This document shows positions 6,448 through 12,840 of a stretch of 51,373 nucleotides of DNA, one piece after another (position 1 is the first letter of the stretch; each line of letters starts with the position of its first letter). Position numbers and translations under genes: made by a program. Location: positions 1 to 51,373 of the forward strand of contig JAKPQE010000051.1 in assembly GCA_029572955.1 (NCBI GenBank). The letters are read 5' to 3'. The notes below the pieces were generated by a model, which saw nothing but the letters and a program-made list of their open reading frames with translations, had not been told where the DNA came from and did no database searches. This DNA comes from Pseudomonadota bacterium. Lineage in GTDB: Bacteria > Pseudomonadota > Alphaproteobacteria > Rhizobiales > JAKPQE01.

Positions 6448-8253
6448 ATGACCGCCGCCGCGAGCGACCGGCCGTTCCTCGACGTTGCGCGCTCGGTGAC
6501 CGGGCGGACCTGGCGCGATCGCCTCGATCGCGGCACCACCAACACCGCCCTTGCCATCGCCGAGCGTTTCGACATCCCCGAACTGGTCGCCCGGGTGCTG
6601 GCGGCGCGCGGCGTCGGTCTCGCAGAGGCCGAAGGCTATCTCGACCCGACGCTGAAAGGCCTCTTGCCCGATCCGGCCCGCCTCACCGACATGGAGGCCG
6701 CCGCCGCCCGCATCGCCGATGCCGTCGAGCGCCGCGAGTCGATCGCCGTCTTCGGCGACTACGACGTCGACGGCGCCACCTCGTCGGCGCTGCTCGGGCG
6801 GTTCCTGCGGGCGCTCGGCGTCGAGCCGCGCATCTACATCCCGGATCGCATCTTCGAGGGCTACGGCCCCAATCCGGCGGCGATCGACGCCCTTGCCGAC
6901 GACGGCGCCGGCCTCATCGTCACCGTCGACTGCGGCGTGACCAGCTTCGAGGCGCTGGAGCGGGCCCGCGCACGTGGCGTCGACGTCGTCGTCCTCGATC
7001 ACCACCAGGTCGGCGAGACGCTGCCGCCGGCCGTCGCCATCGTCAATCCGAACCGCGCCGACGATCTCTCGGGGGAGGAGCACCTCGCCGCCGTCGGCGT
7101 GTCGTTCCTCGCCGCCGTCGCGATCAACCGCGAGCTGCGCCGGCGCGGCTTCTTTGCCGGGCGGGCCGAGCCGGACCTCCTCGCGCTGCTCGACCTCGTC
7201 GCCCTCGGCACGGTCGCCGACGTCGTGCCGCTGCGCGGCGTCAACCGCGCCTTCGTCGTCAAGGGGCTGGTGCCGCTGCGCCGCCGCGCCAATCCCGGCC
7301 TTGCGGCGCTGCAGGATGTCGCCCGGCTGACCGGTCCGGCCGCGCCCTATCACCTCGGCTTCCTGCTCGGGCCGCGCATCAATGCCGGCGGGCGCATCGG
7401 CGATGCCGCCCTCGGCGCCCGGCTCCTGATGTGCGACGACCCGGACGAGGCCGCCGCCATCGCGCTGCGCCTCGACCAGCTCAACGCCGAGCGCCAGGCG
7501 ATCGAGGCCGAGACGCTCGCCGCCGCCGACGCCGAAGCCGCCGCCGAGATCGGCGACGGGCCCGGCCCCTCGGTCCTCGTCACCGTCGGCGCCGACTGGC
7601 ATCCCGGCGTCGTCGGCCTCGTCGCCTCGCGCCTCAAGGATCGCTGGCGCCGGCCGACCTTCGCCGTCGCCATGGCCGGCGAGACCGGCACCGGCTCGGG
7701 CCGCTCGCTCCCCGGCGTCGATCTCGGCCGCGCAGTGCGCGACGCGGTCACGGCCGGCATCCTCGAGAAGGGCGGTGGCCACGCCATGGCCGCCGGCATC
7801 ACCGTGCGGCGCGGCGCGCTGATCGAGTTCCGCGCCTTCCTCGAGGAACGGCTCGGCGCCGATGTCGCCGCCGCCCGCAGCCGCGACGCGCTGAAGATCG
7901 ACGGCGCGATGACGGCCGCCGGCGCCAGCCTCGACTTCATGGCGACGATCGAGCGCGCCGGCCCCTTCGGTGCCGGCCACCCCGAACCGGTCTTCGCCTT
8001 CCCGGCCCACCGCGTCGCCTTCGCCGATCGCGTCGGCCAGAACCACATCCGCCTGTCGCTTTCCTCGAGCACCGGCGCGAGCCTCAAGGCGATTGCCTTC
8101 CGCGCCGTGGGCGAGCCGCTCGGCAACGCCCTCGAAGCGGCGCGCAACGGCGCCCCGCTGCACATCGCCGGCAATCTCTCGGTCGATCATTGGGGCGGCA
8201 GCCCGCGCGTCCAGCTGCGCGTCGTCGACGCCGCCGAGATGCGCCCACGCTGA
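6448..8253 (+). CDS. recJ: Single-stranded-DNA-specific exonuclease RecJ
   Basis: 5'-3' exonuclease on single-stranded DNA in recombinational and mismatch repair. 601 residues. DHH-family metal motifs are clear: FGDYDVDGATSSALL near residue 101, VTVDCGV near 158 and the signature DHHQ near residue 184. The DHHA1 motif GGGHAMAAG lies near residue 442, followed by the C-terminal OB-type region. It starts 48 bp after glpX on the same strand. It is the last gene before an 876-bp island, and its own intrinsic terminator is not obvious: the nearest plus-strand terminator is over 700 bp away at 8971. No truncation or lost motif was seen. Confidence 0.96.
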   Translation: MTAAASDRPFLDVARSVTGRTWRDRLDRGTTNTALAIAERFDIPELVARVLAARGVGLAEAEGYLDPTLKGLLPDPARLTDMEAAAARIADAVERRESIAVFGDYDVDGATSSALLGRFLRALGVEPRIYIPDRIFEGYGPNPAAIDALADDGAGLIVTVDCGVTSFEALERARARGVDVVVLDHHQVGETLPPAVAIVNPNRADDLSGEEHLAAVGVSFLAAVAINRELRRRGFFAGRAEPDLLALLDLVALGTVADVVPLRGVNRAFVVKGLVPLRRRANPGLAALQDVARLTGPAAPYHLGFLLGPRINAGGRIGDAALGARLLMCDDPDEAAAIALRLDQLNAERQAIEAETLAAADAEAAAEIGDGPGPSVLVTVGADWHPGVVGLVASRLKDRWRRPTFAVAMAGETGTGSGRSLPGVDLGRAVRDAVTAGILEKGGGHAMAAGITVRRGALIEFRAFLEERLGADVAAARSRDALKIDGAMTAAGASLDFMATIERAGPFGAGHPEPVFAFPAHRVAFADRVGQNHIRLSLSSSTGASLKAIAFRAVGEPLGNALEAARNGAPLHIAGNLSVDHWGGSPRVQLRVVDAAEMRPR

Positions 8254-8335
8254 ACCCGCTGCGCCACGCGCCGCGACCGGCGCCATTGGCGCAGGTGAAA
8301 AATCCGTTAAAAACAAATCGATAATGGGTCCCGCT

Positions 8336-8468
8336 GAATCGGTTTCGCGGCCTGTTGAATCACTTTCTGAGCGACTTGAATCGGTTTCTTACGCCGCCTG
8401 AATCAATATCTGAGGACAGTTGAATCGGATTGTGAGGCCGCCCGGCCGGCGGTCCCGCCACTTGAATC
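8336..8468. repeat. Phased direct-repeat array built on GAATC, period 21-22 bp
   Basis: GAATC begins at 8336, 8357, 8378, 8400, 8422 and 8464, giving steps of 21, 21, 22, 22 and 42 (one slot degenerate). The surrounding consensus is about TTGAATCrrTTTCTGAG, and three copies contain GAA-N5-TTC. A 21-bp period is two helical turns, so the boxes face the same side of the DNA. GAATC is also a GANTC site, the target of the alphaproteobacterial methyltransferase CcrM. No protein partner can be named from sequence. Confidence 0.85.
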
Positions 8469-8513
8469 AATGTCTGAGCGAGCGGACCGCGCCGCTACCC
8501 GCCGGCCCTCGGG

Positions 8514-8543
8514 AAAAAGGCCCGGACGTCGCCGCCCGGGCCT
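8514..8543 (-). terminator. Intrinsic terminator (minus strand) after the 57-residue gene
   Basis: On the minus strand an 8-bp stem, AGGCCCGG paired with CCGGGCCT across a 10-base loop, runs directly into TTTTT. It lies 112 bases after the stop of the small gene at 8655-8828, the only minus-strand gene upstream of it. Confidence 0.75.
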
Positions 8544-8654
8544 TCGAATCTGTTTGGCAGGCTCTCCGGCGAAGCGATTCAGAAGACCCAGGTTTTCTTC
8601 CGTCACCTGAACCGTCCGATGATCTCGACGGACCATCGTCACCCTTGGCAGGCC

Positions 8655-8828
8655 TTACTTTTCTTTTCGAACACCCTTGAAGGGGGTTCCATCCTTTTTG
8701 CCGTCCATGAAGCGACCGTTCTCGGTGTTTCGCTTGGTCCACGTTTCCGTTTTCGGATTGTAGACTTGCGATCGATCGCGAACGGCACCGTTTCGATGCC
8801 CGTCACCGGAAGGAGGGTTCGTAGCCAT
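8655..8828 (-). CDS. Conserved small basic protein of unknown function (57 residues)
   Basis: Translated directly from the minus strand; the protein begins MATNPPSGDGHRNGAVRDRS and ends GRFMDGKKDGTPFKGVRKEK. An AAAGGA ribosome site lies about eight bases before the ATG. The protein is hydrophilic and basic, has no cysteine or membrane segment, and its Gly/Asn/Lys-rich pattern with a terminal KGVRKEK resembles short uncharacterised proteins I recall from many proteobacteria; this resemblance was not searched. The leader holds an ATATCC/GGATAT dyad (8834-8852) overlapping the ribosome site, which might tune translation. Transcription would end at the terminator at 8514-8543. Function is unknown; the basic character allows nucleic-acid binding, but that is a guess. 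Confidence 0.75.
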   Translation of the reverse strand: MATNPPSGDGHRNGAVRDRSQVYNPKTETWTKRNTENGRFMDGKKDGTPFKGVRKEK

Positions 8829-9129: not shown

Positions 9130-12100
9130 TCACGAGCAGCCGCTGGTCGCGCCGCAGGTGTCGCACTTCAGGCAGGTGCCGTTGCGCACCATGGTGAAGT
9201 TGCCGCATTCGCCGCAGGACTCGCCCTCGTAGCCCTTGAGGCGGGCGAGGGCCACCTGCTCGGCAACGTCCGGCTCGGCGCTTTCCTCGACCGGCAGGGC
9301 CGCCGCGTTGGGCGCCCGGCTGACGTCGGCCTCGGCCGAGAAGTCGGGCTTGAGGGCGGTCGCGAGATTGCCGCCGCGGCCGGAGAGGCTCGTCACCGTG
9401 CTCGCCTTGGTGCCGCTGCCGCCGGCATTCTTGGTCTCGCCCGACTGGCGTCCGTCGACGACCTTGAAGCGCTCGGCGATGCGGCCGCGCACGAGGCCCT
9501 TGGAGACGATCATCTCGGCCGCCGGCGCCTTGCCTTCGGAGACGCCCGAGCCCATCGCCGTGTTGCCGATCTCGGACGGATCGACATGGGCGAGGTCGTG
9601 CCGCGAAAGGTACGAGATGGCGAGCTCGCGGAACACGTAGTCGAGGATCGACGTCGCGTTCTTGATCGCCTCGTTGCCCTGCACGATGCCGGCCGGCTCG
9701 AACCGGGTGAAGGTGAAGGCGTCGACATACTCGTCGAGCGGCACGCCGTATTGCAGGCCGAGCGAGATGGCGATGGCGAAGTTGTTCATCAACGAGCGGA
9801 AGGCCGCGCCTTCCTTGTGCATGTCGATGAAGATCTCGCCGAGTCGTCCGTCGTCGTACTCGCCGGTCCTCAGGTACACCTTGTGGCCGCCGACGACGGC
9901 CTTCTGGGTGTAGCCCTTGCGCCGGTCGGGCAGCTTCTCGCGATCGCGGATCCGCTCGACGATCTTCTCGACGATGCGCTCGGCGACCGCCGCCGCGCGC
10001 TGCTGCGCCGGCTGGTGCGCCGCCATCTCCTCGATCGCCTCGTCCTCGTCCTCGTCGTCGGCGATCAGCTGGGCCGACAGCGGCTGCGACAGCTTGGAGC
10101 CGTCGCGATAGAGCGCGTTGGCCTTCACGCCGAGGCGCCAGGACAGCATGTAGGCTTCCTTGCAGTCCTCGACCGTGGCGTCGTTCGGCATGTTGATCGT
10201 CTTGGAGATCGCGCCGGTGATGAACGGCTGCGCCGACGCCATCATGCGGATGTGGCTCTCCACCGACAGGTAGCGCTTGCCGAGACGGCCGCACGGATTG
10301 GCGCAGTCGAACACCGGCAGATGCTCGGCCTTGAGGAACGGTGCGCCCTCGAGGGTCATCGCGCCGCAGCAGTAGATGTTGGCCGCCTCGATCTCGGCCT
10401 TGGAGAAGCCGAGCGCCGAGAGCATGTCGAACGACGGATCGTCGAGTTCGGCGTCGCCGCCGAGCAGGTCGCGGCAGAAGCTCTCGCCGAGGGTCCACTT
10501 GTTGAAGGCGAACTTGATGTCGAAGGCGGCGACGAGCGCCTTTTCGACCGCGGCGATCTTCTCTTCCTCGAAGCCCTTGGCGGCGAGCGCCTGGTGGTTG
10601 ATGCCCGGCGCGCCGTCGAGCGTGCCGCGGCCGACCGCGTAGTCGACGATCTCCTGGATCGCCCGGGCGTCGTAGCCGAGGGTGCGCAGCGCCTCCGGCA
10701 CCGCCCGGTTGATGATCTTGAAGTAGCCGCCGCCGGCCAGCTTCTTGAACTTGACGAGCGCGAAGTCCGGCTCGATGCCGGTCGTGTCGCAGTCCATGAC
10801 GAGGCCGATGGTGCCGGTCGGGGCGATCACCGAGACCTGGGCGTTGCGATAGCCGTGCCGCTCGCCGAGATCGAGGGCGCTGTCCCAGGCCGCGATGGCG
10901 TGGGCGACGAGCTTCTCCTCGGGGCAGTTGGCCTGGTCGAGCGGCACCGGCAGTGTCGACAGCTTCTCGTAGCCCGTGCGCTCGCCATGCGCCGCCCGGC
11001 GATGGTTGCGCACGACGCGCAGCATGTGCTCGGCGTTCTTCTTGTAGCCCGGGAAGGTGCCGAGCTCCTTGGCCATCTCGGCCGAGGTCGCGTAGCACAC
11101 GCCGGTCATCAGCGCCGAGATGGCGCCGCACATCGCCCGACCCTCGTCGGAATCGTAGGGGATGCCCGACGACATCAGGAGGCCGCCGATATTGGCATAG
11201 CCGAGGCCGAGCGTGCGGTACTCGTAGGACAGGCGCGCGATCTGCGGCGAGGGGAACTGCGCCATCAGCACCGAGATCTCGAGGACGACGGTCCACAGCC
11301 GCACGCCGTGCTCGAACGCCTCGACGTCGAAGCTGCGGTCCTCGGCGCGGAACTGCATCAGGTTCAGCGAGGCGAGGTTACAGGCCGTGTCGTCGAGGAA
11401 CATGTATTCCGAGCACGGATTGGAGGCCTGGATGCGGCCCGACGCCGGGCAGGTGTGCCACTCGTTGATGGTGGTGTCGAACTGGATGCCGGGATCGGCC
11501 GAGGCCCAGGCGGCGTTGCCGATCTGCTCCCAGAGGTCCCGCGCCTTCAGCGTCTTGCCGACCTTGCCGTCGGTGCGCCGGATCAGGTCCCAGGTGCCGT
11601 CTTCCTCGACCGCGACGAGGAACTGGTCGGTGACGCGCACCGAATTGTTCGAGTTCTGGCCGGAGACGGTGAGATAGGCCTCCGAATCCCAGTCGGTGTT
11701 GTAGGTCGGGAAGTCGATCGCCGTGTAGCCCTGGCGCGCGAACTGGATCACCCGGCGGATGAAGTTGTCCGGCACCTGCATCTTGCGGGCGGCGCGGATC
11801 TCGCGCTTCAGCGCCGGGTTCTTGGCCGGATCGAAGCAGTCGTCACCCGAGCCCTCGCAGTTCACGCAGGCCTTCATGATGAGGTTGAGGTGGCGCGAGC
11901 AGACCTTCGAGCCGGTGACGAGGGCCGCCACCTTCTGCTCTTCCTTGGCCTTCCAGTTGATGTAGGCCTCGATGTCGGGATGGTCGACGTCGACGACGAC
12001 CATCTTGGCCGCGCGGCGGGTCGTGCCGCCCGACTTGATGGCGCCGGCCGCCCGGTCGCCGATCTTCAGGAAGCTCATCAGGCCGGAGGAACGGCCGCCG

Positions 12101-12840
12101 CCGGAGAGGCGCTCGCCTTCGCCGCGCAGCCGCGAGAAGTTGGAGCCGGTGCCCGAGCCGTACTTGAACAGGCGCGCCTCGCGCACCCACAGGTCCATGA
12201 TGCCGTTCTCGTTGACGAGATCGTCCTCGATCGATTGGATGAAGCAGGCATGCGGCTGCGGATGCTCGTAGGCGGACTGCGAGCGGGTCAGCCGGCCGGT
12301 GCGGTAGTCGACATAGTGGTGACCCTGGCCGGGGCCGTCGATGCCATAGGCCCAGTGGAGGCCGGTGTTGAACCACTGCGGGCTGTTCGGCGCCACCTTC
12401 TGGGTCGCCAGCATGTAGGCGAGCTCGTCACAGAAGGCGCGGGCATCGCGCTCGCTGTCGAAATAGCCGCCCTTCCAGCCCCAGTAGGTCCAGGTCGCCG
12501 CGAGCCGGTCGAACACCTGCCGGGCATCGGTCTCCGAACCGGTGCGCTTGCCCTCCGGCAGCTCGTCGAGCGCCGCCTCGTCGGGCACCGAGCGCCACAG
12601 CCAGGACGGAACGGAATTCTCCTCGACGCGCTTCAGGCGCGCCGGCACCCCCGCCTTGCGGAAGTATTTCTGGGCGAGCACGTCGCAGGCGACCTGCGAC
12701 CAGGTCGCCGGCACCTCGATATTCTCCAGCCGGAAGACCACCGAGCCGTCCGGGTTCCGGATTTCGCTCGTCGTGGTGCGAAACGCGACATCCGCATAAG
12801 GGGAGGCCCCTTCCTTGGTGTATCGCCGCTCGATCCGCAT
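9130..12840 (-). CDS. nrdJ: Adenosylcobalamin-dependent (class II) ribonucleotide reductase
   Basis: Reduces ribonucleotides to deoxyribonucleotides using adenosylcobalamin, independent of oxygen. 1236 residues, the long proteobacterial form. Visible motifs: [16 protein letters not shown], the redox Cys in HACFIQS near residue 200, the radical-site Cys in [11 protein letters not shown] near 472 and its partner in [10 protein letters not shown] a few residues on. [16 protein letters not shown] lies near residue 680. A C-terminal zinc-finger-like tail has four CxxC-type cysteine pairs (from CGECGNF through CDTCG). Assignments of individual cysteines follow the Thermotoga enzyme and are inferred. 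The ATG at 12840 has GAGAGGT upstream. The gene stands alone, with a structured leader and an NrdR box. Confidence 0.97.

Follow-up and report, generated by a model that had tools for sequence, protein, structure and literature searches.

What is a row of evenly spaced GAATC boxes doing behind recJ in a genome of the Rhizobiales? The stretch of DNA analysed here (the window) is 51,373 nucleotides long and contains six such boxes downstream of recJ, separated by steps of 21, 21, 22, 22 and 42 bp (Table 1). These coordinates confirm the preliminary description, which reported six boxes at 21-22 bp steps with one empty slot; that slot, which falls between 8422 and 8464, is indeed vacant. Two further GANTC sites listed there, GAATC at 8546 and GATTC at 8576, are also present and make eight sites in 245 bp, but they are probably not members of the array and were not counted as such because of their low matrix scores and because neither is in the 21-bp phase. 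With the unit matrix, the six boxes score 16.5-27.8 bits, against 15.2 for the best match elsewhere in the window; the matrix was partly built from five of the six window units, and its scores in the window are therefore not independent. A putative 57-codon gene (MATNPPSGDGHRNG...) at 8655-8828 on the minus strand, between the array and the reductase gene, has no match in Pfam.

Table 1. The array behind recJ and the features around it, in window coordinates
Feature	Position	Strand	Score or basis
Array unit 1 (core GAATC 8336)	8333..8351	+	matrix score 16.5
Array unit 2 (core GAATC 8357)	8354..8372	+	matrix score 27.8
Array unit 3 (core GAATC 8378)	8375..8393	+	matrix score 21.9
Array unit 4 (core GAATC 8400)	8397..8415	+	matrix score 25.4
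Array unit 5 (core GAATC 8422)	8419..8437	+	matrix score 22.3
Array unit 6 (core GAATC 8464; one empty slot before)	8461..8479	+	matrix score 26.6
Two extra GANTC sites, probably non-members of the array	8546..8580		matrix scores 12.8 (8546) and 8.6 (8576, on the other strand); out of phase
G+C-rich inverted repeat adjoining the array, possibly a terminator (judged from the repeat)	8517..8544		repeat pair I5
recJ, upstream neighbour	6448..8253	+	Pfam DHH, DHHA1, RecJ_OB
Class II ribonucleotide reductase gene, converging neighbour	9130..12840	-	Pfam Ribonuc_red_lgC, Ribonuc_red_2_N

The GAATC boxes are each embedded in a longer repeat unit of 19 bp, approximately SYTGAATCRNTTTYSTSARS, whose core they form. 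A collection of 187 distinct units from 77 arrays shows the preferences S Y TGAATC R N T T Y S T S A R S, in which TGAATC is invariant by the collection rule, as the arrays were gathered via TGAATC steps of 20-23 or 41-44; in a looser set, T precedes GAATC in 69 of 80 units. The outer arms SYTGA and TSARS form an imperfect dyad around an asymmetric middle. Among the 130 steps in the 77 arrays, 113 are of 21 bp, ten of 22, three of 23 and four of 41-42. A two-unit array in a small 2.5 Mb genome of the order (L055, genome G083) has almost perfectly dyadic units, the second being CTTGAATCAATTTCTCAAG.

The unit could in principle act as RNA, as coding sequence or as DNA. An RNA element or hairpin was rejected, since the arms lack covariation (positions -3/15, p 0.75; -2/14, p 0.06) and an Rfam search gave matches below the gathering scores only. 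A coding repeat, with the unit read as xESxSxx in one frame, was rejected by inspection for most arrays, given the 22-bp steps, stops and antisense placement. One array (L130) seemed to match the unit by chance, within an E/S-rich protein, and was excluded from the sets used for unit preferences, degenerate slots and linker identity.

A recent tandem duplication, and with it a minisatellite identity, is excluded by the linkers, which are as different within arrays as between them: identity at the five variable positions is 34.4% within arrays (57 pairs) and 32.7% between arrays (6271 pairs), while the core and the 21-bp step are retained. The same result bears on a wider alternative, a selfish or mutational repeat of minisatellite or REP-like type without any function. 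Such a repeat would be dispersed and patchy among genomes, as the arrays are, and one array, in G015, does have locally repeated linkers. Nevertheless, linkers that are no more alike within than between arrays, occupation of the same ycjX site in either orientation, and the single orientation and terminus-half location described below make it a very improbable explanation. The suggestion that the array is an iteron-like binding platform is, on the other hand, well supported by the same-face spacing, the 19-bp unit, the diverged linkers and the occurrence at many loci in many genomes of the order. Plasmid iterons likewise consist of direct repeats, about 20 bp long and helically phased; unlike them, the arrays have no replication gene among their named neighbours and occupy many chromosomal loci, mostly far from the origin.

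The window array belongs to a family. A 62-position sequence model was derived from 12 three-unit stretches, five of them from the own genome or window region (the window, L030, L034, L035) and the others from further genomes. At E<0.01 it detects seven array loci in the own genome, on contigs C3 (the window), C47, C96, C117, C158 and, twice, C132; at E<=0.01 it matches 45 of 150 genomes of the order, with 35 candidates scored per genome. A strict two-unit pattern is found in 121 of 397 genomes of the order, the own genome included. In the rest of the class it occurs in 16 of 380 genomes, 13 of which have a single match; one of the 16, G616, owes its match to a single string repeated at six places. 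First-unit scores are 4.5-22.0 (median 12.1) for 17 strings outside the order, among the matches listed, and 11.4-26.2 (median 17.7) for 17 sampled strings inside it. Matches outside the order are thus weaker on average but overlapping, and some may be real. Among the genomes sampled, the array family is mainly a feature of one order, possibly Hyphomicrobiales. The reversed control pattern gave one match each in five of 397 genomes, a count that understates chance because this pattern contains the rare word CTAAG. A scan of a separate set of genome contigs, which may omit near relatives, gave eight stretches, none titled alphaproteobacterial; one stretch in viral contigs yielded nothing useful. 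No such phased GAATC arrays were found among the open-access papers listed, judged by titles and abstracts outside the papers cited.

A different sequence, GAATCACACTTCGCCACCGCCGTGAATC, recurs in G000 on contigs C8, C13, C14, C15 and C16, and also C101 and C181. Its copies, at least five of which are no more than about 120 bases from a contig end, look like two-unit arrays stepping by 23 bp; the sequence is probably the terminus of an insertion sequence that broke the assembly.

The genomic context of the arrays is only partly conserved. A gyrase/topoisomerase IV A-subunit gene precedes both the own-genome array at 100 kb on C132 and L168 from family f43. In G001, a member of the same family as the own genome, one array is near the orthologous arginyl-transferase gene, and the pair of genes that flanks the own C47 array encloses an array there too. 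In other families arrays mostly adjoin different genes. Several loci of genus g71 look orthologous and hence are not independent. As to conservation of the window array itself, which the preliminary description proposed to check in relatives, such arrays are present there, while the recJ locus compared, that of G118, has no array behind the gene.

Some arrays follow a gene, others lie in the spacer between two genes or within coding sequence, and both strands are used; in relatives they occur within ycjX, a FemAB-like gene and miaA. This distribution leaves a promoter operator unsupported. More generally, the arrays might be ordinary operators or transcription-linked elements of neighbouring genes, read by a repressor or as GcrA-type sites, and the window array, being intergenic with a terminator-like inverted repeat alongside, would suit that role. 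We consider it quite improbable, however, given placement on either strand of the same gene, the absence of a common function among the named neighbours and the poor fit to the GcrA motif (see below). The arrays also resemble CIR elements (CcrM-associated intergenic repeats; Chen and Shapiro 2003) in carrying GANTC inside dispersed repeats of alphaproteobacteria. The accessible portions of two reviews (PMC2229807, PMC10969869) describe CIR elements as about 110 bp long, with two inverted-repeat arms, and strictly intergenic, whereas the arrays are 21-bp direct repeats that also lie inside genes; a repeat search of 8200-8700 detected direct repeats, and no long inverted repeat that extends across the window array.

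All six window cores are GANTC, that is, CcrM sites by sequence. This word is strongly avoided in the window, with 87 occurrences against a mean of 300 in 100 dinucleotide shuffles, all of which had at least 87. The densest stretch, eight in 245 bp, is at the array, and the next separate stretch has four; the Poisson probability of at least eight is about 1.5e-8 per place. Counted within the window, the enrichment at the array is therefore far above background, in agreement with the earlier expectation. We further considered in-phase slots that are one base off GAATC. GANTC is kept in nine of 20 such slots and at nine of 48 control offsets (one-sided Fisher p 0.03); among the 154 outward slots examined, 118 have nothing near GAATC and 16 have GAATC itself. 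The result is weak and hints that methylation matters for the arrays. More than GANTC must be read, since the flanks are conserved and A is preferred in the middle. The earlier CcrM reading thus stands as far as the degenerate slots go, at the weak level of that test, and falls short of the conserved flanks and the middle A. The proposed link to GcrA fared worse. Its motif, YGAKTCK as quoted in an excerpt of PMC8725594, is unmet by the units: GAATC in the forward direction lacks K in the middle, and a match on the reverse strand needs C or A before GAATC, found in four of 80 units.

A second GANTC module, GATTC-N4-GACTC, in several cases followed by CTTTTC, was seen by eye near arrays L031, L033, L061, L122, L135, L164 and L197; it may be a separate binding site or part of a promoter.

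These data bear on the alternative that the arrays are sensors of CcrM methylation. Clustered GANTC sites would become hemimethylated when the fork passes in late S phase, and a methylation-sensitive protein would bind or leave; SeqA acts comparably on GATC. The packing of an otherwise avoided word, its retention in degenerate slots and the recurrence of the GATTC-N4-GACTC pairs beside arrays speak for such a sensor, as do the similar parS distances of loci on both arms (see below), which imply replication at about the same time. The substitution test gave a weak result, though, the conserved bases outside GANTC and the middle A exceed what a methylation mark needs, and a clock of this kind needs no single orientation. 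On balance a methylation sensor appears unlikely, without being far-fetched.

The position of the arrays was measured from parS, mapped by pattern and used as a proxy for the origin, on 16 chromosomes having parS and arrays on one contig. Among the matches listed, 33 of 39 loci lie at 0.25-0.45 chromosome length from parS, a band chosen after seeing the data, with four closer and two farther; the two arms hold 16 and 23 loci. Outside family f45, 12 of 13 loci among the matches listed are in this band (binomial p 1.4e-4 for the post hoc band). The main exception is G118, with 0.18-0.49; its terminus, the only one judged from GC skew, is at about 3.6-3.9 Mb by sampled skew rather than opposite parS. 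Two loci are near the origin (G058, 4666494; G315, 2036838). Control stretches of G118 away from arrays (20 of 15 kb, 300 kb in all) contained one strong single unit, on the opposite strand. The 51-kb window contig has no parS match, and both own-genome matches are on C141, so the window array is unplaced. A dif pattern, of a type known from other proteobacteria, matched in four of 24 genomes and gave no usable site.

The position and orientation counts rest on pattern matches, among the matches listed. Chromosome lengths of G315, G329, G356 and G368 are rounded genome sizes. The position count excludes chromosomes split over several contigs (G092, G126 and others) and also, for want of the length of the contig that carries both parS and array, G029, G237, G377 and G391. 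Eight matches failing the R/Y/A filter were not counted in either tally (G020 508715; G045 365046, 465815 and 1812610; G058 624708; G135 2273486 and 3642511; G145 792307), nor were the two loci of G084, 3.4 kb apart and both on the plus strand.

The orientation of the arrays is more uniform still. Among the matches listed, all loci are co-oriented on 20 of the 21 contigs with at least two loci, whichever arm they are on. The exception is G315, with three to one, where the first unit of the minority match scores 12.2. Taking one contig per family or genus, the chance probability is 1.5e-5, or 6e-5 without two doubtful loci, again among the matches listed. Two of the matches removed by the filter were on the minority strand (G045 465815 and G135 3642511); without the filter, the ratios would be 4:1 in G045 and 3:1 in G135. 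Local GC skew on the array strand, taken over a 20-kb context, is positive for ten of 20 sampled arrays and negative for the other ten. Both signs are found within each of G058, G118, G145 and G218, and also within G092 if the doubtful L130 is kept; the negative-skew locus of G145 is 792307, which fails the unit filter. Our first idea, a polarity linked to the replichore, is contradicted by these data: the direction of the arrays is absolute, not relative to replication.

The ycjX gene (DUF463) is the clearest single case. In G118, G218 and G097 it carries an array on its sense strand, which after the FPGDLP motif reads ESVFKPVESLS in G118 and, translated by eye, ESVFEHPESIF in G097. In G058 the array is at the same point of ycjX but the gene is reversed, and the array reads EILIQQVETLI. 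Here the protein yields and the orientation of the array is kept.

Polar sites that flank the terminus recall a replication-fork barrier of Tus/Ter type or a guide for a translocase of KOPS type. KOPS and Tus/Ter-type sites, however, reverse their orientation at the terminus, whereas the arrays are constant in orientation within a chromosome and evenly divided between the two skew signs. We rejected a KOPS or fork-trap identity for this reason and regard any function as barrier or guide as extremely improbable. We know of no DNA signal with one absolute direction across the terminus, and the open-access literature listings on GAATC repeats and terminus domains showed none. A single absolute orientation would call for a geometric explanation rather than one based on replication.

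The two-turn spacing, the dyad arms and the many loci argue for a protein that binds the arrays, and the best candidate is ZapT, a MerR-type protein. In Caulobacter, according to the available sections of PMC7188993, ZapT gives ten ChIP peaks, nine of which fall at 1.3-2.2 Mb, in the terminus and its flanks; the peaks are mostly inside open reading frames, and the motif search reported there found none. ZapT joins terminus DNA to the division ring (excerpts of PMC7188993 and PMC7858052), dimerises, and clusters with ZauP and ZapA (excerpt of PMC7858052). The arrays are similar to ZapT sites of Caulobacter crescentus in their location in the terminus and flanks, often inside open reading frames, at about ten loci. 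They differ in that no motif is reported for ZapT in those excerpts, in being rare outside their order, and in being known here from sequence.

As excerpted, its authors recognised zapT as a MerR gene adjoining ihfA in genomes that also have zapA and zauP; the zapT-like gene was assigned here from the MerR gene in the ihfA locus alone. Of 30 genomes examined in the order, 29 carry such a gene, with a nearly invariant helix-turn-helix, at the ihfA locus (3.1-3.3 kb), a likeness to the ZapT system shared by array-negative genomes. It is found in 20 of 20 array-positive and nine of ten array-negative genomes, with nearly the same helix-turn-helix, and therefore co-occurrence does not single out ZapT. 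Two scanned zapT-like proteins match Pfam MerR_1, with CarH and HspR as the nearest NCBIfam models, far below the cut-offs; the helix-turn-helix gives weak PDB matches including CarH and GlnR (E 1e-4 to 0.01). Among the ihfA loci (L203, L209, L207), that of G118 (3.67 Mb) is near the terminus by GC skew. The ihfA locus of the own genome is on C132, the contig carrying two arrays.

Purified ZapT bound peak and non-peak DNA alike, with PCR products as ligands (PMC7188993, accessible part). Being made by PCR, these ligands were unmethylated, so that a methylation-dependent preference would be missed with them. Since the arrays are rare outside their order, they may not explain the Caulobacter ZapT sites unless the motif differs there.

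Two related types of operator show how such a unit might be bound. The HspR site (HAIR) is given in an excerpt of PMC7464140 as CTTGAGT-N7-ACTCAAG, of which Campylobacter conserves the left arm better. Like the array unit, whose arms SYTGA and TSARS include CTTGA...TCAAG, it is an imperfect dyad; the CTTGA/TCAAG arms are 11 bp apart in HAIR and nine in the unit. The MerR-like BldC binds direct repeats cooperatively and head to tail (PMC5859096, in part), but its repeats step by one helical turn. As far as those excerpts go, HAIR and BldC sites are promoter operators, unlike the arrays.

With moderate confidence, we propose that a sequence-specific protein organising the terminus half of the chromosome uses the arrays as binding platforms. 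A single protein dimer, or a single head-to-tail pair, would occupy each 19-bp unit, and the 21-bp, two-turn steps would place the bound proteins side by side on one face of the helix. ZapT, encoded near ihfA, would most likely do the binding, CcrM methylation of the core may tune it, and the arrays would serve to form a terminus domain or to link it to the divisome. The window array would then be one of about seven platforms predicted in its own genome. A point against the proposal is that most genomes of the order lack the strict pattern, which was found in 121 of 397.

A more specific possibility, which we offer as tentative and rather doubtful, is that the arrays are polar clasps joining both chromosome arms at the base of the terminus domain. 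A twofold-symmetric protein pair would align two arrays antiparallel, and if the arms run alongside each other, two arrays that are antiparallel in space point the same way on the map. A clasp would account for the two-turn phasing, the single orientation and the similar origin distances on both arms, and hemimethylation at CcrM sites could open the arrays at fork passage. We know of no aligner for the terminus half beyond the stretch served by SMC. In Caulobacter, SMC-dependent arm alignment covers about 600 kb near the origin (PMC11043382, accessible part).

As dispersed sites marking the terminus region, the platforms proposed here would resemble matS, which MatP binds in the Ter macrodomain of E. 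coli. A matS site is a single 13-mer. The arrays, being phased multi-unit 21-bp repeats with one orientation, are not matS sites. In the available sections of PMC7858052 and PMC7188993, MatP is reported only in Enterobacteriaceae and Vibrionaceae. ZapT is the terminus binder known in Caulobacter; a motif with a defined phase, place and orientation provides testable loci for the study of terminus organisation outside the enteric and Vibrio families.
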